DNA of 12,250 bases, taken from NCBI GenBank assembly GCA_022573935.1, contig JACZTE010000007.1, positions 1 through 12,250 of the forward strand, read 5' to 3'. The notes beneath the pieces are model-generated. The model had not been told where the DNA came from, made no database searches, and saw only the letters and a program-made list of their open reading frames with translations. The position numbers and the translations under genes are program-made. Below are positions 1,188 through 12,250 of the stretch, one piece after another. Source of the DNA: Chloroflexota bacterium (GTDB lineage: Bacteria; Chloroflexota; Dehalococcoidia; DSTF01; RBG-16-68-14). Positions within the stretch are counted from its first letter, which is position 1; the number at the start of each line of letters is the position of its first letter.

Positions 1188-2534
<1,347 letters not shown>

Positions 2535-2565: not shown

Positions 2566-3315
2566 ATGATTGCACCCGGACAGTTCGACGGCAAGGTCGC
2601 CCTGGTCACGGGTGCCGGATCGGGCATCGGCCGCGCTTCTGCCCTCGCCTTCGCGCGAGGGAACGCGCACGTCGTCGTTTCCGATATCTCTGACGAAGGC
2701 GGCGAGGAGACCGTGCGGCTGATCCAGGCGGCTGGCGGAGAGGCCACGTTCGTCCACGCGGACGTCTCGCGCGCGGACGAAGTGCAGGCGCTGATCGACG
2801 AGGCCGTCCGTTCGCTCGGGCGGCTGGACTACGCGCACAATAACGCTGGCGTCCTTGGCACGATGTCTTCAACGGCGGATTGCACCGAGGAAGACTGGGA
2901 CAGGACGATCGCAATCAACCTCAAGGGAGTCTGGCTGTGCATGCGATCGGAGATCCCGCAGATGCTGAGCCAAGGCGGCGGAGCGATCGTCAACACGTCG
3001 TCGGCGGCGGGGCTAGTCGCCTTCCAGGGCCTCCCCGCTTACGTGGCCAGCAAGCACGGCGTCGTCGGCCTTACCAAAGCGGCAGCGCTAGACTACGCCC
3101 GAGATGGAATCAGGGTGAACGCGGTGTGTCCCGGATTCATCGACACGCCGCTGGTCAAAGGTGTCGCATCTGGTGACCTTGGACGCATCCTGCCAACCGG
3201 CCGTCTCGGCACGCCCGAAGAGGTGGCCGAGGCCGTGGTGTGGCTCTGCTCCGAAAGCGCATCATACGTCACCGGCCACACGATGGTCGTCGACGGCGCG
3301 ATGATCGTCCAATAG
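2566..3315 (+). CDS. Short-chain dehydrogenase/reductase (SDR family)
   Basis: This 249-residue classical SDR is a cytoplasmic NAD(P)-dependent alcohol dehydrogenase or ketoreductase. It shows the Rossmann motif TGAGSGIG (15-22), D40 after the second beta strand (which favours NAD+), NNAG (92-95), and the catalytic S146, Y159 and K163 (YVASK). PG at 189-190 and the C-terminal VTGHTMVVDGA are also typical. The ATG at 2566 is preceded by GGAAGG at 2556-2561; the open frame extends upstream into the thiolase gene, but those residues are not SDR-like. It lies 31 nt after the thiolase and is probably co-transcribed. In context it may oxidise a 3-hydroxyacyl-CoA to the ketoacyl-CoA used by the thiolase, or a ring hydroxyl; that assignment is inference. 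Confidence 0.93.
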   Translation: MIAPGQFDGKVALVTGAGSGIGRASALAFARGNAHVVVSDISDEGGEETVRLIQAAGGEATFVHADVSRADEVQALIDEAVRSLGRLDYAHNNAGVLGTMSSTADCTEEDWDRTIAINLKGVWLCMRSEIPQMLSQGGGAIVNTSSAAGLVAFQGLPAYVASKHGVVGLTKAAALDYARDGIRVNAVCPGFIDTPLVKGVASGDLGRILPTGRLGTPEEVAEAVVWLCSESASYVTGHTMVVDGAMIVQ

Positions 3316-3444: not shown

Positions 3445-3954
3445 ATGCCCGTCATCACTGATGAACAGCGAGCGCTGATCGGAAAGGAGAGCGAGCCGAG
3501 GCTCGTGCCGGAGCCGGTCAACCAGACCATGGCCAGGCATTGGTCGGAGATGGTCGAGGACCCGAATCCGATCTACTTCGACGAGGCGTACGCCCGCACG
3601 ACCTGGCTGCAGGGCACGTTTGCACCGCCCGCCATGCTCTATACGTGGGCAAGGCCGCCCGTGTGGCCTGAAGAGGAGTCGGAGAGCCCGCTGTCGCAAC
3701 TCGCCTTGGAGGGCTGCCCGGTTACGGTGGCAGTTAACGCGACGCAGGAGTACCTCATGCCGCTGCGCTACGGCGATGCCCTCTCCGTGACCAGTCAGCT
3801 CAGCGCCATCAGCGACGAGAAGACGACGCGACTGGGGACTGGCCATTTCGTCTCTACGATGGACACGTTTCGGAATCAGTTCGACCATGTGGTGGGCAGC
3901 CACAGCTTTACGTTTTTCATCTATCGCCCCCACGCGCCGGGTGCCGAGGCATGA
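3445..3954 (+). CDS. FAS1-like dehydratase domain protein (MaoC N-terminal hotdog subunit)
   Basis: The 169-residue product is a single hotdog domain of the MaoC_dehydrat_N type, likely the non-catalytic partner of a heteromeric enoyl-CoA hydratase. The hydratase-2 signature D-x-N-P-I-H is present as DPNPIY (39-44), with Tyr where the catalytic His belongs, so this chain probably cannot catalyse hydration alone. The family comparison is with the N-terminal half of mycobacterial ChsH2, which pairs with ChsH1; ChsH2 carries an additional C-terminal DUF35 domain that is absent here. The ATG at 3445 has GGGGGAG at 3436-3442, only two bases away, so initiation may be weak. The stop overlaps the next start (ATGA), a strong sign of translational coupling with the catalytic subunit. 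Confidence 0.85.
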   Translation: MPVITDEQRALIGKESEPRLVPEPVNQTMARHWSEMVEDPNPIYFDEAYARTTWLQGTFAPPAMLYTWARPPVWPEEESESPLSQLALEGCPVTVAVNATQEYLMPLRYGDALSVTSQLSAISDEKTTRLGTGHFVSTMDTFRNQFDHVVGSHSFTFFIYRPHAPGAEA

Positions 3955-4370
3955 CGAGCACATGGAGCGCGGACGACAAGCTGGCGCCCGTTAGCTTGGA
4001 GCTTACGCGCAGGCGGGCAGCCCAGGCCGTGGCGGGCACGAGGGACTACTATCCAGTCCATCACGACGAGGAGTTCGCCCGTAAGAGCGGCGCGACGGGC
4101 ATCTTCTTCAACACGATGTTCCTGCAAGGATTCGTGGGCAGGGCCGCAACCGAGTGGTTCGGCAACGACGCGTTCCTTCGCAAACTGGAGATCACGATGG
4201 GCGGTTCGAATTACATCGGCCGCACGCTCGTGGCCGAGGGCACCGTGTTGGCGGTTCGAGAGTCCAACGGCTGCACGCTCGTCGACGCGGAGGTGACCCT
4301 CTCGACGGAGGACGGCCCGACGACCGATGTGAAGCTCACGATCCAGCTTCCCGCTACCATCACGCCATGA
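3951..4370 (+). CDS. MaoC-like hotdog hydratase subunit
   Basis: The 139-residue single-hotdog protein is the likely catalytic half of an (R)-type enoyl-CoA hydratase. The motif DYYPVHHD (32-39) provides D32 and H37 at the D-x(4)-H spacing of hydratase-2 active sites, and GATGIFFNT follows where the family usually has the G-x-I-x-H-G loop. Together with the upstream FAS1-like subunit it resembles the ChsH1/ChsH2 pair, which adds water across the double bond of steroid side-chain enoyl-CoAs. The start overlaps the upstream stop by four bases. The CoA-transferase gene begins 22 nt downstream. The two adjacent hotdog genes, with catalytic residues only in this one, make an obligate heteromer the simplest reading; the substrate is not determinable. 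Confidence 0.87.
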   Translation: MTSTWSADDKLAPVSLELTRRRAAQAVAGTRDYYPVHHDEEFARKSGATGIFFNTMFLQGFVGRAATEWFGNDAFLRKLEITMGGSNYIGRTLVAEGTVLAVRESNGCTLVDAEVTLSTEDGPTTDVKLTIQLPATITP

Positions 4371-4392
4371 ATCGATGCTGTAGGCGAGCGCC

Positions 4393-6765
4393 GTGACAAT
4401 CCTGGCAGGGCTGCACGTCGTCGAGATCTCCGGGAACGGCGCCGCTGCTATGGCCGCGAAGCATTTCGCCGACTGGGGCGCCAGCGTCACCATATTGGAA
4501 CCGAGCGGCGGAACGCCTCTGCGCGATGAGCCCCCGTTCTATGAGAAGGACGGCGGCAGGCGAAGCGCGACCTGGGCATGGCTATCGCGCGGGAAGACCA
4601 CTGTCCGTGTTGGGCCAGGAACGAAGCTCACGATCGAGGCGGCCGGCCGGCTCTGCGAGAGCGCGGACGTGGTGTTCGTGGAGAGCGAGATGGCGCTGCC
4701 CGTACTCGGGCTGACGCCAGCGCAGGTGCGGCCACGCTTCGAGGGGAAGACGACCTGCGTCCTGATCTCGCCGTTCGCGCCCGATGGCCCGTACGCGCAC
4801 TACGCCGCGACCGATCTCGGGATCAACGCGCTCGGCGGCTGGATGGACCTGCTCGGCGATCCCGACCGCGAGCCGCTCCGTCCCGGCGGCGGAATCACGC
4901 CCCGGCTCACCGGCCTCTTCGCCCTCGTCGCGGCGCTGATCGGACTGCGACACGTCAGGCAAGGCGGGCCGCTCCAGTTCGTCGATCTGTCTGCGCAGGC
5001 GGTCGCCGCATCGATGATCGTCGCGCCGTGGCTGGTGAAGAGCATGATTGGCTATCAGCACAAGCGACGCGGCAACGCCTGGCCGATGGGGGTGATGGAG
5101 TGCGCCGATGGGTTCATCGGCATACCGCCGCTGACCGCGACGCACTGGGAACTGCTCTGCCAGCTCATGGACATCGGCGATGTCCTGGACCATCCCCAGG
5201 GCCGCGACATCCTCTACCGGATGGAGCACGAAGCTGAGCTGCACGAGCGCGTGAAGCCCTGGCTCAAAGAGCGCAAACGAGACGAGATCATCGAACAGGC
5301 CCAGTCGTGGCATCTGCCCGGCGCTCCAGTGCAGACCATCGCCGAGCGTCTCGACTGCCCGCAGCTAGCGGCCCGCAACTTCTGGGACTCGGCCGAGATC
5401 GACGGCAGGCCGGTGAAGGTGCCGCGCGTTACCTACTCCGTCGAGGGTTTGGCGCCGGTGGAGCGCTCGCCGCTCCGCGAGGCGGAGGAGGTGGAGATCG
5501 CGTCGCCGTCGACCGCCGCACCAAGCGACGGCCCCAGGTCGCTGCCGTTCGAGGGCCTCCGCGTGCTCGACCTGACGATGCTGTGGGCGGGGCCGTACGC
5601 GATGATGCTGCTCGGCGCCCTCGGCGCGGACGTGCTCAAGGTCGAGTCGATCCAGCGCCCTGATCCCTATCGCTACACGTGGGCGCCGGTAGGCCAGGAT
5701 CACTGGTTCGAGCGGGCGCCGCTGTGGAATGACACGAACTGCGACAAGCGCAACATCACGCTCGATCTCACCTCCGAGGCCGGCAAAGAGCTGTTCGAGC
5801 GGCTGGTCGGCGAGGCTGATATCGTCATCAGCAACTTCGCCAACCGGGTCATGCCGAACCTTGGGCTGACCAACGAGCGGCTGCTGAGCATCAACCCGCG
5901 GCTCATCGCCGTTTCGATGCCCGGCTACGGCGTGGGCGGGCCGTGGGAGACTTACGTCGGCTATGCCATCGCGTTCGAGCAACTCATTTGCGGGTCGATG
6001 ACCGGCTACGCGGATGGAGTGCCCTCGTACTGCGGCGGCTTCTGCGACCCGCTGGTCGGCCTGCACGTCGTGACGTCGATTGAGCTCGCGTTGCGTCAGC
6101 GCGAGGAGACGGGGAAGGGCGTCGAGGTTGAGATCCCGCAGTGCGAGACGCTGGACAGCCTCTTCGCGCCGGAGCAGATCGCCGTGCAGCATGGGGCGCC
6201 GGTGCCGTCCCGGCGGGGGAACAAGCACGAGTGGATGGCCCCGCACGACGCCTATCGCGTCGCCGGCGTCGACCAGTGGATCACGATCGCGGTCGCTACG
6301 GACGACGAGTTCGCCGCGCTATCGACGGCGCTCGGTCGCGCCGAGCTGGCGAGCGACCAGCGCTTCGCCACGATCGCGGCGCGGAAGGAGAACGAGGCGG
6401 CGCTCGACGAAGTCATCGCCGCGGCGGTGAAGGATCATGACGCGAAGGCGCTCGAGCGCGAGCTTCAGGCGGTGGGCGTCATGGCCTGCCGGGTCGTCGA
6501 GCCCTACCTGCTGCCCGAAGACGAAGGGCTGCGGCATATCGGCTTCTTCCAGCCGCTGGAGCGGGAGCTGACGGGAACGCACATGTTCAAGACCTGGCCG
6601 TTCCGCTTCAGCTCGATCGATGCCTCGCACAAGCGGCAGCCGCCGCTCCTGGGCGAGCACAACCACGAGATACTGTCGTCCCAACTCGGCCTCTCCGCTG
6701 ATGAGCTGTCCCGGCTGGAACGGGAGCGGGTGATCGGCACGGAGCCGCTGGGGCTCGATGGCTAG
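4393..6765 (+). CDS. Tandem (two-domain) family III CoA-transferase, CaiB/BaiF type
   Basis: The 790-residue protein is about twice the length of a normal family III CoA-transferase and carries two CaiB/BaiF repeats: residues 1 to about 360 (begins LAGLHVVEISG) and about 386-775 (begins FEGLRVLDLTMLWAGPYA), joined by an acidic, Ser/Pro-containing linker. Members move CoA between carboxylates through an aspartyl-CoA anhydride. The expected catalytic Asp is D198 in FVDLS in the first half; the second half reads VEVEI, placing E580 at that position. It probably activates the substrate acid at the expense of a pathway CoA-thioester. The start is GTG with only weak GGCGAG-like complementarity upstream. 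The DMSP CoA-transferase/lyase DddD has the same tandem layout, but the neighbours here do not suggest DMSP metabolism. The next gene is 32 nt downstream. Confidence 0.9.
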   Translation: MTILAGLHVVEISGNGAAAMAAKHFADWGASVTILEPSGGTPLRDEPPFYEKDGGRRSATWAWLSRGKTTVRVGPGTKLTIEAAGRLCESADVVFVESEMALPVLGLTPAQVRPRFEGKTTCVLISPFAPDGPYAHYAATDLGINALGGWMDLLGDPDREPLRPGGGITPRLTGLFALVAALIGLRHVRQGGPLQFVDLSAQAVAASMIVAPWLVKSMIGYQHKRRGNAWPMGVMECADGFIGIPPLTATHWELLCQLMDIGDVLDHPQGRDILYRMEHEAELHERVKPWLKERKRDEIIEQAQSWHLPGAPVQTIAERLDCPQLAARNFWDSAEIDGRPVKVPRVTYSVEGLAPVERSPLREAEEVEIASPSTAAPSDGPRSLPFEGLRVLDLTMLWAGPYAMMLLGALGADVLKVESIQRPDPYRYTWAPVGQDHWFERAPLWNDTNCDKRNITLDLTSEAGKELFERLVGEADIVISNFANRVMPNLGLTNERLLSINPRLIAVSMPGYGVGGPWETYVGYAIAFEQLICGSMTGYADGVPSYCGGFCDPLVGLHVVTSIELALRQREETGKGVEVEIPQCETLDSLFAPEQIAVQHGAPVPSRRGNKHEWMAPHDAYRVAGVDQWITIAVATDDEFAALSTALGRAELASDQRFATIAARKENEAALDEVIAAAVKDHDAKALERELQAVGVMACRVVEPYLLPEDEGLRHIGFFQPLERELTGTHMFKTWPFRFSSIDASHKRQPPLLGEHNHEILSSQLGLSADELSRLERERVIGTEPLGLDG

Positions 6766-6797
6766 GCCGGCGCACCGCGCACAAGGAGCGACGTAGG

Positions 6798-7961
6798 ATG
6801 GATTTCGCGTTTCCGCCCGAGGTGAGCGCCTTCCGCCAGGAGCTTGGGCGCTACCTCGATGCGTCAGTGACGCCCGAACTCTTGGAGGAGTGCCGGACGG
6901 GAAGCCAGTGGGGCGGGCCGCTAACGAAGGCGTTCTGGCGCAAACTCGGGGCCGATGGCTACTTCAGTATCGGCTGGCCGGTCGAATATGGCGGCGGCGG
7001 GAAGTCGCTCCTCTACCTGTACGCCTTCAACTACGAGATGTCCTATCGCCGTCTTCCCGTACCGCTGGTGACGCTGAACACGGTGGCCCCGACGATCATG
7101 CGCATCGGCACGGAAGAGCAGAAGCAGGAGTACCTCCCGAAGATTCTCCGTGGCGAGATCGAGTTCGCCATCGGCTACACAGAGCCCGAGGCCGGCACCG
7201 ACCTCGCCTCGCTGAAGACGCAGGCGGTTCGCGATGGCGATAGCTACGTGATCAACGGCCAGAAGCTCTTCACCAGCGGGGCGGACCACGCAGACTACGT
7301 GTGGCTGGCCGTCCGGACGGACCCCGAGGCGCCGAAGCACCGCGGCATCTCCGTGCTGGTCGTCCCACTCGACGCGGAGGGCGTCGAGGTGAGGCCGCTG
7401 CACATCATGTCGGGTACCAGCACGAGCGTCACGTTTTACGATAACGTGCGCGTGCCCGTCTCCGCGCTGATCGGCGAGGAGAACCGCGGCTGGTACCACA
7501 TGACGACCCAGCTCGATTTCGAGCGGGTGGCGATCAGCGCCGTCCCCCACATTCAGCGCCTGTTCGACTCGCTGTGCGAGGCGCTCCTCCCGCAGGCCCT
7601 GGGAGAGGGCGATGAGTGGACGCGGGTCACGCTCGCGGGGATGGCGGCGGACCTCAATGCGCTCAAGGTGATGGACCTCAAACTAGCGTCGATGGTGGCG
7701 AACGGCGAGGTGCCGGTCTACGAGGCCTCGCTCCTGAAGGTGCTCTCCAACGAATTCCGGGTGAAGCTCACCGGCGAAGCGCTCCAGATGCTGGGCAGCG
7801 CTGGGCTGATCCGCCGCAATTCGCCCGGGGCGATCCTCGACAGCTCTCACGACACGATCGAACGGCAGATGAGAGAGTCGGTGATCAACCTTTTCGGCGG
7901 AGGAAGCAACGACGTTCAGCGAGACATTATGGCCACGCACGGCCTCGGGTTGCCGAGGTAA
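6798..7961 (+). CDS. Acyl-CoA dehydrogenase, catalytic-Glu subunit of a heteromeric pair
   Basis: This 387-residue flavoprotein chain would form the alpha,beta double bond in an acyl-CoA. The flavin/substrate motif YTEPEAGTD (127-135) is intact. A glutamate in FERVAIS (E242) sits where isovaleryl- and long-chain-type enzymes place their catalytic base, while the medium-chain position in the C-terminal loop (GGGSNDVQR) is Gly (G368). The R-x-x-F-G motif that binds the FAD of the neighbouring subunit is missing after E242; the next gene has it. This matches the ChsE1/ChsE2 type of heterotetramer, in which two different chains build each active site. AAGGAG (6783-6788) nine bases before the ATG supports the start. 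The partner gene begins three bases after its stop. Confidence 0.92.
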   Translation: MDFAFPPEVSAFRQELGRYLDASVTPELLEECRTGSQWGGPLTKAFWRKLGADGYFSIGWPVEYGGGGKSLLYLYAFNYEMSYRRLPVPLVTLNTVAPTIMRIGTEEQKQEYLPKILRGEIEFAIGYTEPEAGTDLASLKTQAVRDGDSYVINGQKLFTSGADHADYVWLAVRTDPEAPKHRGISVLVVPLDAEGVEVRPLHIMSGTSTSVTFYDNVRVPVSALIGEENRGWYHMTTQLDFERVAISAVPHIQRLFDSLCEALLPQALGEGDEWTRVTLAGMAADLNALKVMDLKLASMVANGEVPVYEASLLKVLSNEFRVKLTGEALQMLGSAGLIRRNSPGAILDSSHDTIERQMRESVINLFGGGSNDVQRDIMATHGLGLPR

Positions 7962-7964
7962 GAT

Positions 7965-9089
7965 ATGCAGTTCAGCGACTCGGAGACGCAACGGCTGCTG
8001 CGGGACACCACGCGGTCCTATCTCGCGGACAGGTTCGCATCGGAGCGGCTGTACCCGCTCCACCATGGCGAAAGCCCGCTGACTGATGAGGAGCTGAAAG
8101 GGTTCGCCGAGCTAGGGTGGTTCGGCCTGCTGGTCGCGGAGTCGGAGGGCGGGGGCGGCGTCTCGCTGCTGAACGCGGCCGTCGTCATTGAGGAGTTCGG
8201 CTACGCGTCGGTACCCGCCCCGGTGATGGTGGGCAACATCGCCGCCGTGCTCCTCGCGAGTGTCCCTGCCTCCGACGCGCTCCGCAACCACCTGTCCGGC
8301 CTCGCAGGAGGCAAGCGGCTCTACACCGTCTGCGAAGGCCCGCGGCGACGCGGCCGCCCGGCTGAGCCGGCATCGCCGCCGCTCACGTCGACCGGCGGGA
8401 CGCTCAGCGGGACGTTGCCGCTGGTTCCCTTCGCGGACGTGAGCGACTTCGTCGTGGCGCCGCTCATCGTCGAGGGCGAGCCTGCCTTCGGCCTCCTGCC
8501 GTTGGAGGGTGCTCGCCTGCAGCGCCAGGAGCTGCTCGACCGGCCAAACTACTTCAGCGTCCACTTCGAGGAGGCAGCCTTCGACGGCTCGATCGTGCTC
8601 GCGACGGGCGAGCGCGCGGACGAGCTGCACGAGCGCTGCGATGCGATTGTGACCGCCCTGTCGCTGATCGAGCTCGCTGGGATGATGCAGCGCATCCTGG
8701 AGATGACCACGACGTTCGTCACCAATCGCGTGCAGTTCGGGCAGCCGATCGCGAAGTTCCAGGCCGTGCGCCATCGCGCGGCCGAACTCTTGATGCAGAC
8801 GGAGACGACCCGTTGGGCCGCCTACCATGCCCTCTGGCGCTTTCAGGAGGACCCCGCAGACACGGAAGAGATCTGGCTGGCGAAGCAGTGGGCGGTGCGG
8901 GCGGCGGATCGCATCTATCAGACCAGCCACCTGCTGCACGGCGGCGTCGGCGTGGCCATCGATTTCCCGCTCCATCTCTACACGCTGGGTGTCGCCTCCT
9001 TCGCCGTCCGTGGCGGCACGATGAACGAGATGGTCGACCGGACGGTGGAGACGATGAAGTCGCGACTCGGAGCCGAGGCGTCCGCATGA
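7965..9089 (+). CDS. Acyl-CoA dehydrogenase, FAD-site partner subunit
   Basis: The 374-residue chain has the acyl-CoA dehydrogenase fold markers R255-x-x-F258-G259 in NRVQFGQPI and HGGVGV (325-330), both of which contact FAD. It lacks the TEP segment: the corresponding region (about 120-140) is an irregular Arg/Pro stretch. The helix before NRVQFG (SLIELAGMMQ) has no Glu at the catalytic position equivalent to E242 of the upstream protein (E236 lies elsewhere in that helix by my alignment). It is therefore unlikely to work alone and complements the upstream gene, from which it is separated by three bases. Its stop overlaps the ATG of the Ltp2-like gene (ATGA). The abnormal stretch could in principle reflect a compensated frameshift, but the flanking frame reads through convincingly. 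Confidence 0.9.
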   Translation: MQFSDSETQRLLRDTTRSYLADRFASERLYPLHHGESPLTDEELKGFAELGWFGLLVAESEGGGGVSLLNAAVVIEEFGYASVPAPVMVGNIAAVLLASVPASDALRNHLSGLAGGKRLYTVCEGPRRRGRPAEPASPPLTSTGGTLSGTLPLVPFADVSDFVVAPLIVEGEPAFGLLPLEGARLQRQELLDRPNYFSVHFEEAAFDGSIVLATGERADELHERCDAIVTALSLIELAGMMQRILEMTTTFVTNRVQFGQPIAKFQAVRHRAAELLMQTETTRWAAYHALWRFQEDPADTEEIWLAKQWAVRAADRIYQTSHLLHGGVGVAIDFPLHLYTLGVASFAVRGGTMNEMVDRTVETMKSRLGAEASA

Positions 9090-10249
9090 CGATCCGCAAC
9101 AAGGCGGCTATCGTCGGCATCGGTCAGACGGAGTTCTCGAAGGACTCCGGCCGGAGCACGTTGCACATGGCGCTGGAGGCGATCCTGCAGGCGCTGGACG
9201 ACTGCGGCCTCACGACGAACGACGTCGACGCGGTCGTGAAGATGAGCGCCAACGACGATATCTACGAGATCGACCTGCTGCGCTCGCTGAATCTTTCGAA
9301 CCTGCGCTTCTTCAACGAAGTGCCCCACGGCGGCGGCGCCGCTTGCGGGACGATCGCGGGAGCGGTGGCGGCCGTCGTCTCCGGCATGGCCGACGTGGTG
9401 GTGACCTTCCGGTCGCTGAACGAACGCTCGGAGCTTCGGTTCGGGCAGTCCAGCCTGGGCGGCGGAGTAACGCACTGGCGGCAGTACTACCTGCCCCACG
9501 GCCTGGTGACGCCGGCGCAGTGGGTGGCCATCTTCGGCCAGCGCTACCTCCACGAGTACGGCCACTCGACCGAGGAGCTGGGCCGGGTCTCGGTGCTCAC
9601 CCGCAAGCACGCGGCGACGAACCCGCACGCGATGATGTACGAGCGGCCGATTACCATCGAGGATCACCAGAGCTCCCGCTGGATCGCCGAGCCGTTACGC
9701 CTCCTCGACTGTTGCCTCGATACGGACGGCGCCTGCGCCGCGATCGTCGTCTCCGCGGAGAAGGCAAAGCGGCTGAAGTCGACGCCCGCGTACATCGCCG
9801 CCGCGGCACAGGGCACGGGCAGCCGTTCGGAGATGATGACCAGCTACCAGCGCACCAACCTCGCCCGGCTCGAGGAGTCGGAGGCGGCCGCCGCGCAGAT
9901 CTATCCGATAGCCGAGCTGACGCCCAAGGACATCGATGTCGCGCAGATCTACGATCCGTTTACGCCCATGGTGTTGATGCAGCTAGAGGCGTACGGATTC
10001 GCTGAGCCCGGGCAGGCGCCGCGACTCTTCCACGAGGGCCGCCTGGAGCTCGACGGCGGCATGCCGATGAACACGCACGGCGGCCATCTGGGCGAGGGGT
10101 ATCTCCACGGCTTCGGGCACATCGTCGAGGGTGTCCGTCAGATCCGGGGCACCGCCGTCAACCAGGTTCCCGACGTCAAGACCTGCCTCGTGACCAGCGG
10201 TGTCGGCGTGCCCACCAGCGCGATCATCCTATCGCGAGAGGCGTACTGA
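9086..10249 (+). CDS. Ltp2-like thiolase-fold retro-aldolase (lipid-transfer/SCPx type)
   Basis: The 387-residue product belongs to the lipid-transfer branch of the thiolase superfamily: AAIVGIGQTEF at the N terminus, THWRQYYLPHGLVTPAQW in the middle, and NTHGGHLGEGYLHGFGH near the C terminus, where true thiolases have the GHPxGATG block. In the steroid aldolase Ltp2 the catalytic residues are, as I recall, Tyr294 and Tyr344. Here Y289 (YDPFTP) and Y339 (GEGYLHG) have the same 50-residue spacing. This suggests retro-aldol cleavage of a beta-hydroxyacyl-CoA, releasing a ketone or aldehyde and a short acyl-CoA, rather than thiolysis. C87 (AACGTI) lies near the thiolase nucleophile position but may not be equivalent. 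The ATG overlaps the upstream stop by four bases, and the DUF35 gene starts one base inside this stop, as expected for a stoichiometric partner. Confidence 0.9.
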   Translation: MTIRNKAAIVGIGQTEFSKDSGRSTLHMALEAILQALDDCGLTTNDVDAVVKMSANDDIYEIDLLRSLNLSNLRFFNEVPHGGGAACGTIAGAVAAVVSGMADVVVTFRSLNERSELRFGQSSLGGGVTHWRQYYLPHGLVTPAQWVAIFGQRYLHEYGHSTEELGRVSVLTRKHAATNPHAMMYERPITIEDHQSSRWIAEPLRLLDCCLDTDGACAAIVVSAEKAKRLKSTPAYIAAAAQGTGSRSEMMTSYQRTNLARLEESEAAAAQIYPIAELTPKDIDVAQIYDPFTPMVLMQLEAYGFAEPGQAPRLFHEGRLELDGGMPMNTHGGHLGEGYLHGFGHIVEGVRQIRGTAVNQVPDVKTCLVTSGVGVPTSAIILSREAY

Positions 10250-10650
10250 TGGCCGACTCCCCGCGTCCCTATCCGCAGCCGGATCGCGACACGGCGCCGT
10301 TCTGGGAGGCGCAGAACCGGCATGAGCTCAGCTTCCAACGCTGCACGAGCTGCTCCGCGGTGCGCTACCTGGTGGGCCCCATCTGCCCGCAGTGTCACTC
10401 CTTCGACCACGAGTGGGTCGCATCCAGCGGTCGGGGCACGATTCATAGCTACACGGTGGTGCGACACCAGACGCACCCGGCGTTCCCGGTGCCGTACACG
10501 GTGCTGCTGGTCGAGATGGAGGAGGGGCCGCGAGTCATCGCCCAGCTGCGCGCGCCGGAGGACGCTCCGTTCGAGATCGGCTCGCCCGTTCACATCGAGT
10601 GGGAAGACCACCCCAAGCAGTCGCTCCCGGTCTTCGTTCTGGACGGGTAG
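10249..10650 (+). CDS. DUF35 protein (rubredoxin-like zinc ribbon plus OB-fold)
   Basis: The 133-residue protein shows the standard DUF35 order: an N-terminal helix segment PFWEAQNRHEL (17-27), a zinc ribbon with C32-x2-C35 and C46-x2-C49, then an OB-fold (about 60-130) with GTIHSYTVV and PYTVLLVEM strands. DUF35 proteins are non-catalytic partners of lipid-transfer thiolases and aldolases; in mycobacteria the DUF35 half of ChsH2 binds Ltp2 and is needed for its activity. Here it is free-standing, and its ATG overlaps the Ltp2-like stop (TGATG), which indicates coupled synthesis with the aldolase rather than with the hydratase. It closes the run of tightly packed genes; a 91-nt gap with a promoter follows. 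Confidence 0.93.
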   Translation: MADSPRPYPQPDRDTAPFWEAQNRHELSFQRCTSCSAVRYLVGPICPQCHSFDHEWVASSGRGTIHSYTVVRHQTHPAFPVPYTVLLVEMEEGPRVIAQLRAPEDAPFEIGSPVHIEWEDHPKQSLPVFVLDG

Positions 10651-10741: not shown

Positions 10742-11734
10742 GTGGCAGACAAAGAGTATTTCATCGCAGCCTCCGAATGCCACCTTATGGGGAGCTTCGA
10801 CGAGGTGAGCTACTATCCCGATCTCTCGCGCTGGTTTAGGAGCGCCATGACCGGCGTCGCCCGGGTCTGGGGCGCTCCTAAGGAGATGGCGCCGCCCCGG
10901 GCCGTGGAGCTGATCAAGCAGATGGACGAATGCGGTGTCGACGTCGCATTCGGGCTGCGCGAGTCGATGATGGACGTCACGGGCTACGCAGCTCCCATGT
11001 CCACCAACGGCTTCATCATCAAGGAGATCGAGCCGTACCCGGACCGGCTCTTCCTCGAATGCAACGTCGGGCCCATCTTGCATCGTGGCGTCAAGCACGC
11101 GATCTGGGAGATGGAGTATCTAGTCAAGAACCACGGCGCGAAGCTCTGCAAGGTCTACGCGCCGGAGGATGGCCCGCTCAACGACCCGGAGATGTGGCCG
11201 TTCTACGAGAAGGCGTGCGAGCTGGACATCCCGCTCACCATCCACATGGGGATGGCGTATGTCGTGCCGCAGCCGACGAAGTACACGCTGCCGCTGCTGC
11301 TGGACGATGTCCTCCTCGCCTTTCCGGAGCTGAAGGTGATCGCCTACCACATGGGCTGGCCGTACCACGAGGAGCTGTTCGGCTTGGCCGGCAAGCACCG
11401 GAACCTCTACATCGGCATCTCGGGCATCGTCGGCTGGTTCGCCCGAGCTCCGTACCGGGGCTATCACCTGATCGGCGAGGCGTTGGAATGGGCGGGCCCT
11501 GACAAAATCGTCTTCGGGCTGGACTGGCCCGGCGTCACCATGAAGGCGTGCGTCGACTACATCAAGAACCTCGAGATTCCGGAAGAGCTCCAGCAGCAGT
11601 GGGGCTATCCCGCGATCACCGACGAGATTCGAGCGAAGATACTCGGCCTCAACCTCGCCCGGCTCACGGGCATCGAGCCTGTGAAACGGCTGAAGGGAGC
11701 TCCAGCGCAGAGCGGCGTCGCGGGCGGGAGCTAG
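10742..11734 (+). CDS. Amidohydrolase_2 (ACMSD-like) family metal-dependent hydrolase or decarboxylase
   Basis: The 330-residue TIM-barrel protein belongs to the amidohydrolase_2/ACMSD-related group, whose members hydrolyse or decarboxylate carboxylated rings. Likely metal and catalytic residues are H168 (TIHMG), H203 (AYHMGWPYHEE) and D261 (FGLDWPG). The first-strand HxH motif reads E12-C-H14 (SECHL), so one His ligand is replaced by Glu. Some decarboxylases of this family (gamma-resorcylate and 5-carboxyvanillate decarboxylases) also use a Glu at this site, which makes a decarboxylase or lyase role as likely as hydrolysis. The start is GTG, chosen because AAGGAG (10730-10735) lies six bases upstream. 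The last 15 or so residues are Gly/Ala/Ser-rich and probably disordered. It has its own promoter and likely forms an operon with the following aldolase-like gene, 34 nt downstream. Confidence 0.88.
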   Translation: MADKEYFIAASECHLMGSFDEVSYYPDLSRWFRSAMTGVARVWGAPKEMAPPRAVELIKQMDECGVDVAFGLRESMMDVTGYAAPMSTNGFIIKEIEPYPDRLFLECNVGPILHRGVKHAIWEMEYLVKNHGAKLCKVYAPEDGPLNDPEMWPFYEKACELDIPLTIHMGMAYVVPQPTKYTLPLLLDDVLLAFPELKVIAYHMGWPYHEELFGLAGKHRNLYIGISGIVGWFARAPYRGYHLIGEALEWAGPDKIVFGLDWPGVTMKACVDYIKNLEIPEELQQQWGYPAITDEIRAKILGLNLARLTGIEPVKRLKGAPAQSGVAGGS

Positions 11735-11768
11735 CGTCCGACCGCAGGCCGATGAAAGGGCGCGATTG

Positions 11769-12250
11769 TTGAAGGATCAGGCCTGTATCGTCGGCATTGG
11801 TGAGACTGCGTACACCCGCGACCGCGACTCGACAACTGGCACCCTGGCCCTACAGCTTCAGGCCTCCGTGCGCGCGGCCGAGGACGCGGGCCTCAGCACC
11901 AAGCAGATCGACGGCGTCATGCCGTTTCCCCGTCTCGCCACCGCCGAGGAGCTGGCGGCCAACCTGGGCATGAAGGATCTGCGCTACGCGGCGACGCTCC
12001 ATATGGGAGGCGCCGCCCCTGTCGCGTCGCTGCAGAGCGCCGCGATGGCGGTCACCTCGGGCGCTGCCGACTACGTGCTCATTCCGGCCGGATGGAACAG
12101 CTACTCCGGCAGGCGCGCGCAGGATACCGTCGTCGATGACGTCTCGGCGATGCCGGGCGGCGCGATCGCCCGCGACTACTACGTTCCCTACGGGCTGACA
12201 GCGCCCGCGCAGTGGTACTCTCTCATCGCCCGTCGCCACATGCACGAGTT
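11769..12250 (+). CDS. Second Ltp2-like thiolase-fold protein, truncated by window end
   Basis: The reading frame runs off the end of the window after about 160 codons. It begins KDQACIVGIGETAYTR and contains YYVPYGLTAPAQW, closely matching AIVGIGQTEF and YYLPHGLVTPAQW of the Ltp2-like gene at 9086, so it is a divergent paralogue in the lipid-transfer thiolase branch. The segment LHMGGAAPVASLQSAAMAV corresponds to the N-terminal active-site helix, and no Cys is present at the thiolase nucleophile position. No in-frame ATG precedes it; a TTG at 11769 (or the adjacent TTG at 11766) with AAAGGG at 11755-11760 is the best start. Residues equivalent to the catalytic tyrosines lie beyond the window, so aldolase activity cannot be judged. 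It follows the amidohydrolase by 34 nt. Confidence 0.85.
   Translation, partial: MKDQACIVGIGETAYTRDRDSTTGTLALQLQASVRAAEDAGLSTKQIDGVMPFPRLATAEELAANLGMKDLRYAATLHMGGAAPVASLQSAAMAVTSGAADYVLIPAGWNSYSGRRAQDTVVDDVSAMPGGAIARDYYVPYGLTAPAQWYSLIARRHMHE

Follow-up and report, generated by a model that had tools for sequence, protein, structure and literature searches.

The window analysed here is a stretch of 12,250 nucleotides from a Chloroflexota bacterium (contig JACZTE010000007.1). Its forward strand carries, at positions 3445–10650, a cluster of seven genes resembling the igr/cas-type modules for steroid side-chain cleavage. Open reading frame (ORF) analysis and Pfam and NCBIfam profile searches placed all seven genes, with their predicted domains, at the coordinates given below. 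The cluster opens with the MaoC half of ChsH2, of FAS1 type and without DUF35 (H2; 3445–3954, 169 amino acids, PF13452), and a ChsH1-type MaoC protein (H1; 3951–4370, 139 amino acids, PF01575). These are followed by a two-domain class III CoA-transferase (4393–6765, 790 amino acids, PF02515 twice). The next two genes encode acyl-CoA dehydrogenases (ACADs): the ChsE2-type AcdA, with N-terminal, middle, and C-terminal ACAD domains (6798–7961, 387 amino acids), and its divergent ChsE1-type partner chain AcdB, with N- and C-terminal domains only (7965–9089, 374 amino acids). An Ltp2-type retro-aldolase with a thiolase-like C-terminal domain (9086–10249, 387 amino acids, PRK07855) and a free-standing DUF35 protein composed of zf-ChsH2 (PF12172) and OB_ChsH2_C (PF01796) domains (10249–10650, 133 amino acids) complete the cluster. 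H2 and H1 overlap by 4 nucleotides, as do AcdB and Ltp2; AcdA and AcdB are 3 nucleotides apart, Ltp2 and DUF35 share one nucleotide (TGATG), and the remaining gaps are 22 and 32 nucleotides, the latter being the largest within the seven genes. Seven packed genes, a tandem CoA-transferase in the middle of the operon, and a separate DUF35 gene overlapping the aldolase stop codon are what the original prediction had described, and all three were borne out.

For all six ChsE-, ChsH-, Ltp2-, and DUF35-type proteins, the best match in the PDB is a steroid side-chain enzyme, which upholds the parts list of the ChsE1–ChsE2, ChsH1–ChsH2, and Ltp2 system proposed for the cluster. H2 is closest to 4w78_A and 4wnb_A (E 7.5e-19) and H1 to 4wnb_B and 4w78_B (E 3e-9); the two entries name the ChsH1 and ChsH2 chains the opposite way round. 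Both residues of the MaoC dyad, Asp and His, whose role is described in the accessible part of PMC11321319, are kept in 100 of the 101 aligned rows of the H1 family, with one gap. The H2 family has Tyr at the position of the dyad His in 82 of its 97 aligned rows, the window protein among them, and His in two. The window pair has the heteromeric MaoC arrangement with the dyad in the ChsH1-type half only. Judged from these residues, H1 is the predicted catalytic subunit of the hydratase, and H2 is probably the non-catalytic one.

AcdA is most similar to 6wy8_B (Tcur3483; E 5e-101), followed by 6wy9 and 4x28_A. AcdB is most similar to 6wy8_A (Tcur3481; E 2.6e-26), followed by 4x28_D. We take 6wy8 and 4x28 to be steroid ACADs; the PDB listing itself gives acyl-CoA dehydrogenase only. 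Glu-Arg occupies the presumed catalytic position of AcdA in the window and in 96 of the 100 aligned rows, and the Glu is presumably the catalytic residue. The corresponding column of AcdB holds Glu in none of the 61 aligned rows (61 of 96 rows used); the window AcdB has Glu-Arg two columns away, and an alignment shift is possible for this row. The two chains, each matching one chain of 6wy8, have the sequence features of a heteromeric pair with the catalytic Glu in one chain.

The aldolase scores 529.8 bits with the NCBIfam model PRK07855 'lipid-transfer protein' (cut-off 469). Its best PDB match is 6ok1_A, the Ltp2 of Thermomonospora curvata (E 2.8e-123), with 7pxp far behind (E 2.4e-28). Tyr289 and Tyr339 align to Tyr294 and Tyr344 of T. 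curvata Ltp2, which have roles in catalysis according to the sections of PMC12329534 at hand. The motif of the window protein is YDPF, not the YDHF of igr/cas-type aldolases. The homologue search scored the 7998 candidates sharing most words, and among the 120 nearest homologues listed of 7768 matches the alignment gives 45 with YDPF and 75 with YDHF (a plain pattern search gives 44 with YDPF); the 45 keep both tyrosines. The closest homologues include several at 78–89% identity labelled Dehalococcoidia or Chloroflexi in their source records. YDHF with Tyr is found in 98 of the 133 Ltp2-like rows of the loci described below (duplicates included), and Chloroflexota loci are the source of all the Tyr-keeping Ala, Pro, and Val variants (9, 8, and 3 rows). 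Because two loci, L008 and L009, carry YDHF in the same gene order as the window, the His-to-Pro change arose inside this operon family.

An aldolase of another type lies just upstream of the module in the Chloroflexota genome G179 (L129, 5291–6922). It has the CtSal motif YDCY and is accompanied by a free DUF35, so Sal-type and Ltp2-type aldolases are adjacent there, both unlinked. It groups with a Vibrio Sal-like protein at an SH-aLRT support of 100, where long branches meet, and its DUF35 finger, C-x3-H-x8-C-x2-C, is of the Shy type as given in a section of PMC12329534.

The DUF35 protein of the window contains a C-x2-C-x10-C-x2-C (C4) zinc finger, and its best PDB match is 6ok1_B, the ChsH2 DUF35 domain of T. 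curvata (E 4e-29). The original prediction regarded the unlinked DUF35 as special, a view that the loci examined do not support. We assigned the state of DUF35 in the best 80 of 552 loci from a contig scan, with families called by profiles built from relatives of the window proteins themselves. DUF35 is fused to a MaoC half in 60 of these loci, stands alone in 17, occurs in both forms in one, and is not seen in two. The 17 loci come from five Chloroflexi, six mycobacteria, three Nocardioides, two other actinobacteria, and one Myxococcales, and part of them have an igr/cas-like gene order. In the Myxococcales locus (L070), a tandem CoA-transferase also adjoins the aldolase, and in mycobacterial loci such as L033 and L038 one is located nearby on the opposite strand. 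The Sal partner of L053 was labelled as standing alone in the aldolase tree; its DUF35 gene encodes 312 amino acids and is probably a Shy fusion missed by the MaoC profile. A second set, L087–L136, contains duplicates of its own members and of L007–L010, and its first 30 members are about 4 kb long. Without the two Rhodococcus opacus loci (L125 and L135), it comprises 48 Chloroflexota loci, duplicates and short pieces included, of which 36 have DUF35 alone, 12 show no DUF35, and none shows a fusion.

Since 17 of the best 80 loci lack the DUF35–MaoC fusion, as does the window, the fusion is not a strict defining feature of igr/cas-type modules. The passages seen of PMC10398937 report that an independent DUF35 protein, ChsH4, and the aldolase Atf1 matter in sterol side-chain breakdown, and those of PMC12502768 that the MaoC and DUF35 parts of ORF40 of Comamonas TA441 retain both activities when expressed separately. 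In view of the 17 loci, the 36 Chloroflexota loci, and ChsH4, we reject an interpretation of the unlinked DUF35 as the mark of a new class of enzyme. In the aldolase tree, the fused state corresponds to four changes and is nested within the unlinked state if the root lies outside Ltp2. This suggests that the hydratase–DUF35 fusion is a derived add-on to the aldolase–DUF35 pair, and the unlinked DUF35 is an ordinary state and probably the older one.

The C-terminal half of the CoA-transferase is most similar to 9fn0_B, a benzylsuccinate CoA-transferase (E 9e-55), and the best stretch of 9fn0_A falls in the N-terminal half (E 1e-28). The aligned Asp, which we take to be the catalytic residue of class III CoA-transferases, is at the expected place in the C-terminal half; the N-terminal half has Thr. 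With two class III chains and Asp in one of them, the 790-residue protein resembles, by sequence, a fused benzylsuccinate CoA-transferase (BbsEF-like). We compared eight related Chloroflexota genomes that encode an aldolase sharing 70% identity or more with that of the window (G001–G004, G085, G175, G179, and G186) and a more distant ninth (G265). Copies of the CoA-transferase at 54–71% identity occur in seven of the nine; G004 and G085 are without one at that level. Of the 294 genomes examined from the class to which G002 belongs, 107 gave an Ltp2-like match at 1e-60, and eight gave one of at least 70% identity.

Phylogenetic trees of the aldolase (92 of 124 rows, with 32 of the 64 fused YDHF rows kept) and of AcdA (56 of 99 rows) were calculated by a quick maximum-likelihood method with SH-aLRT support only. 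The window aldolase belongs to a Chloroflexota clade of 11 rows (support 100), which is sister to a clade of 48 rows (100) that comprises actinobacterial, proteobacterial, and a few other sequences and includes the igr/cas-type modules, the two clades being joined at 95. In the AcdA tree, seven Chloroflexota rows (100) are sister to 29 igr/cas-type rows (96) and joined to them at 99, apart from the second ACAD pair of the proteobacterial clusters. Both window proteins are sister to, not inside, the clade containing Actinobacteria and Proteobacteria, in which loci with this kind of gene order from Comamonas, Pseudomonas, and Rhodococcus represent the characterised enzymes; no characterised sequence is itself a tree row. 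The aldolase and the dehydrogenase probably share one history. The PDB searches gave steroid enzymes as best matches and the two trees the same branching, and the outcome that would have refuted the original prediction did not arise. On the basis of the trees of the aldolase and the catalytic ACAD, we reject a merely superficial likeness to igr.

The seven-gene order is found again in three contigs of Chloroflexi metagenome-assembled genomes (L007, L008, and L009) and in L127, where AcdA appears as two ORFs, and because of this recurrence the arrangement is not due to chance. Other loci vary the plan. H2–H1 is encoded on the opposite strand in L128, a fused double MaoC is placed after DUF35 in L129, and L130 has a divergent H2–H1 and no tandem CoA-transferase. 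Paralogous modules in G186 (L134, contig C61) and G002 (L136, contig C126) contain an ACAD pair, fused MaoC halves, a tandem CoA-transferase, a YDVF aldolase, a free DUF35, and a third ACAD. Ltp2-like genes are also carried by three plasmids of Vibrio alfacsensis, two of them listed from fish; one plasmid (L002) has a fused-type ChsE/ChsH/Ltp2 cluster.

The cluster does not start at 3445, as had been assumed, since a linked thiolase (1368–2534, forward strand, 388 amino acids) and a short-chain dehydrogenase/reductase (SDR; 2566–3315, forward strand, PF13561/PF00106) lie upstream, separated from H2 by a gap of 129 nucleotides. The thiolase scores 684.4 bits with the equivalog model NF005889 'steroid 3-ketoacyl-CoA thiolase' (cut-off 515) and is of the FadA5 type. 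In actinobacteria, FadA5-type thiolases work on the longer side chain ahead of the C3 module. The NF005889 cut-off is passed in six of the nine related genomes, once each and on the contig of the module (not in G003, G179, and G265), and twice in R. opacus. No protein passes it in 14 control genomes or in two proteobacterial genomes with fused-type clusters. The proteins above the cut-off seen outside Chloroflexota are actinobacterial (G007 and L079), and in contig L079 the thiolase adjoins Ltp2. With the linked FadA5-type thiolase, the case for a steroid-like substrate is stronger than the original prediction allowed. The SDR reaches 336.6 bits with the generic model NF004818 (cut-off 336) and also matches ChcB models below their cut-offs; it is probably a 3-hydroxyacyl-CoA or ring-hydroxyl dehydrogenase. 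Its position is kept in L007, L008, and L127.

Downstream of DUF35, an Amidohydrolase_2 family protein (10742–11734, forward strand) is followed by the 5' part of a second Ltp2-like aldolase, which runs to the end of the window (11766–12248, forward strand). L008 and L127 have the same order, and the position of the amidohydrolase is kept in L007–L009 and L127. PF04909 covers residues 120–308 of the amidohydrolase only, and the PDB matches are weak (best 3irs, E 5e-7). Near its start the protein reads ECHLMG, where we would expect an HxH metal motif, and its metal site may be altered. The 161 residues of the second aldolase within the window score 107.9 bits with PRK07855. The full-length protein in L008 (12646–13806) and L127 (4780–5940, reverse strand) has the motif YDCF, His at the position of the second Tyr, and its own free DUF35 with a C4 finger; it may act on a side chain of different length. 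At the other end of the window, a gene on the reverse strand (45–935) encodes a predicted secreted protein with a negative Pfam search. The protein ends in a hydrophobic helix and KRRL, an end that may resemble those of surface-sorted proteins. Matches to promoters (2 found, 1.4 expected) and terminators (3 found, 4.2 expected) in the window were not counted as support, and an Rfam search of the window gave no match.

Possible ring-degradation genes are present in the related genomes. Full-length KstD/ChcC-like FAD dehydrogenases occur in six of the eight genomes with a close aldolase (not in G085 and G179), with best scores per genome of 270–343 bits versus 386–580 bits in three true degraders. 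The model NF009479 separates poorly, as 11 of 14 controls match it below the cut-off, so we relied on full-length matches and gene position. KstD-like genes are located on the contig of the module in G186 (C38) and G175 (C13, twice), and beside the paralogous module in G002 (C126). In the PDB, the G186 protein is closest to 7p18, a 3-oxosteroid 1-dehydrogenase; the ten ORFs scanned in the flank of the R. opacus locus included no KstD usable as a yardstick. In G175, two alpha subunits of the type II DMSO-reductase family, EbdA-like at 601 and 757 bits (below cut-off), are encoded between the module thiolase and a KstD-like gene. A search with the alpha subunit, fragments included, found 7 EbdA-like matches in G001, 17 in G175, 13 in G179, and 16 in G186, and none in G002, G003, G004, G085, G265, and three steroid-degrader controls. 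The class of the EbdA-like enzymes also includes the steroid C25 dehydrogenases, which carry out an oxygen-independent hydroxylation of sterol side chains, as stated in the part of PMC6016249 seen. We regard the EbdA-like genes as a lead.

From the gene content, gene order, conserved residues, and phylogeny, we consider it likely that the cluster cleaves a branched side chain of three carbons, as propionyl-CoA and by igr/cas chemistry, from a ring-bearing acid, either steroid-like or otherwise alicyclic, and perhaps does so without oxygen. Our confidence is fairly high for the reaction type and much lower for the substrate; the reactions, complexes, and substrate class that follow are predictions. 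The two-domain CoA-transferase would load CoA onto the acid, probably from succinyl-CoA, with its C-terminal half as the catalytic part and the N-terminal half as a partner, as the likeness to BbsEF suggests. If the side chain is longer, the SDR and the FadA5-type thiolase would release acetyl-CoA. The AcdA–AcdB heteromer would then introduce an α,β double bond using the Glu of AcdA, and the H1–H2 heteromer would hydrate it, with the Asp/His dyad supplied by H1 and the rings held by H2. The aldolase and its separate DUF35 subunit would cleave the C–C bond by means of two tyrosines, yielding a ring ketone and propionyl-CoA. The hydratase would have no covalent tie to the aldolase.

Several observations weigh against this reading, and some of them lend themselves to other explanations. 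In locus L009, of the same operon type, H2 (4446–4952) has His at the dyad position and may be a second active half, which makes it an exception to an always inert H2. L010 (from G004) contains thiolase, SDR, H2, H1, Ltp2, and DUF35, but neither ACAD nor tandem CoA-transferase in the stretch seen, and these genes are for that reason not always linked to the module. KshA_C (PF19298) was found in none of the eight genomes with a close aldolase, the completeness of which is unstated, and was found in G265 and in three of three positive controls. Because of this absence, an aerobic 9,10-seco ring pathway is unlikely in the eight genomes. Nothing in the set passes the NF009479 cut-off, true steroid degraders included, and the scanned KstD-like proteins score 431.2 bits as 4-oxocyclohexanecarboxylate dehydrogenase and 431.3 bits with the KstD model, below both cut-offs, so that NCBIfam does not tell the two functions apart for them. 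Lastly, unlinked sets of the same families lie within apparent aromatic-acid clusters. A Rhodococcus rhodochrous plasmid (L001, 5085–11888) carries two CaiB genes, both MaoC halves, a free DUF35, and Ltp2, without annotated ACADs, directly ahead of a 3-(3-hydroxyphenyl)propionate hydroxylase gene, an arrangement suggestive of a retro-aldol reaction on the side chains of aromatic compounds. In Sphingopyxis (L005), CaiB, DUF35, and Ltp2 are a few genes away from a meta-cleavage-type set. It is possible, at less than even chances, that the window genes perform the same chemistry on simpler ring or aryl acids, such as naphthenic acids, cyclohexane-type acids, or arylpropanoids, in place of a steroid-like nucleus. 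The two aromatic-acid loci, the missing KshA, the equal score of the KstD-like neighbours as ChcC1, and the sub-threshold ChcB matches of the window SDR would fit such substrates. Yet neither aromatic-acid stretch, of about 19 kb each, has an annotated ACAD, whereas two are encoded in the window; the linked thiolase exceeds the steroid model cut-off by 169 bits; and the window aldolase and ACAD branch off beside the entire igr/cas-type clade.

The remaining alternatives concern the aldolase and its partner. YDPF lacks the oxyanion-hole His of T. curvata Ltp2, a further point against our proposal, and the second aldolase, which in L008 and L127 has YDCF and its own DUF35, could then be the one that cleaves, the YDPF protein being impaired or serving another task. 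We consider this improbable: the 45 YDPF homologues with both tyrosines among the 120 listed show that this is not a decayed gene, YDHF occurs in the same operon in L008 and L009, and changing the His of T. curvata Ltp2 cost only a 14-fold loss, as reported in the excerpt of PMC12329534. Still less credible is that Ltp2–DUF35 is a thiolase or condensing enzyme like BbsAB or the archaeal HMG-CoA synthase complex, in a cluster for ordinary β-oxidation or biosynthesis. The distant PDB matches 7pxp and 6esq do have separate DUF35 chains, but 6ok1 is a far better match than 7pxp, the Tyr pair of Ltp2 is present, the Cys of the thiolase HDCF motif (as defined in the excerpt of PMC12329534) is absent, and the cluster includes a separate true thiolase. 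A rather doubtful variant of our proposal has the free DUF35 bridging the aldolase and the hydratase non-covalently, so that hydration and cleavage take place in one particle. In its favour are the overlap of Ltp2 and DUF35 and their conserved membership in the operon, and hydration is reported to be unfavourable without cleavage in the portion of PMC11321319 consulted. The same portion states, on the other side, that the MaoC domain of Shy–Sal failed to co-purify with the aldolase when DUF35 was missing, and the separately expressed TA441 halves are still functional (PMC12502768, in part).

The natural YDHF, YDPF, YDAF, and YDVF variants could be used to probe the mechanism of the aldolase. 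We speculate, with considerable reserve, that some Dehalococcoidia-type Chloroflexota can degrade the side chains of sterols, hopanoids, or related polycyclic terpenoids by a complete pathway that is independent of oxygen. EbdA/S25DH-like molybdenum hydroxylases would act first, a BbsEF-like CoA-transferase would activate the resulting acid, the FadA5-type thiolase and the unlinked ChsE/ChsH/Ltp2–DUF35 enzymes would remove the chain, and KstD-like enzymes would begin on the rings. Such a pathway would be of the steroid type yet lie outside Actinobacteria and Proteobacteria, and its aldolases would tolerate Pro, Ala, or Val at the oxyanion-hole position. Dark-ocean SAR202 Chloroflexi have been proposed, in the part of PMC5395668 seen, to oxidise recalcitrant sterol- or hopanoid-like carbon, with prominent CaiB/BaiF CoA-transferases; that text contains none of the terms aldolase, MaoC, thiolase, and lipid transfer. 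A survey states, in its accessible part, that steroid degradation by SAR202 is without experimental evidence and that its metagenomes yielded no hsaC among the Chloroflexi hits (PMC5790920). The cluster is a defined and testable candidate for the side-chain step, and it would provide a poorly understood group of microbes with a specific means of using steroid-like or other ring-containing carbon.

The enzymes of the cluster are of known kinds, and the new elements are the phylum, not named for such a module in the literature found, the fused CoA-transferase within the operon, and the altered aldolase motif. Among the top-ranked matches in the open-licence PMC literature, seen mostly at title and abstract level, we found no paper on such a module in Chloroflexota; the closest published work is the SAR202 proposal of PMC5395668. 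The cluster shares the ACAD pair, the MaoC pair, and Ltp2 with DUF35 with the igr operon (ChsE1–ChsE2, ChsH1–ChsH2, and Ltp2), its cas counterpart (CasL–CasN, CasM–CasO, and CasP), and ORF40–44 of TA441. It differs from them in that DUF35 is unfused and follows Ltp2, the CoA-transferase is inside the operon, the aldolase motif is YDPF instead of YDHF, and the host is a member of Chloroflexota. The Atf1–ChsH4 system of Mycolicibacterium neoaurum also combines an aldolase with a DUF35-only partner in one operon. However, as far as the available part of PMC10398937 describes it, that system handles a longer side chain, is treated as a counterpart of Sal1, and has no MaoC pair in the described operon. 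Shy–Sal of Comamonas testosteroni has a thiolase-fold retro-aldolase and a DUF35 domain, as does the window; according to the parts of PMC11321319 and PMC12329534 seen, it differs in its C5 side chain, YDCY motif, C3H1 finger, and fusion of DUF35 to a single homomeric MaoC. The window has neither the YDCY/F motif nor the C3H1 finger of the C5 type, its aldolase and DUF35 having YDPF and a C4 finger. The two unlike class III chains of benzylsuccinate CoA-transferase (9fn0) correspond to a single protein of 790 residues in the window. The Bbs thiolase (7pxp) likewise has a separate DUF35-type chain, whereas the pathway of the window would end in an aldolase, not a thiolase.

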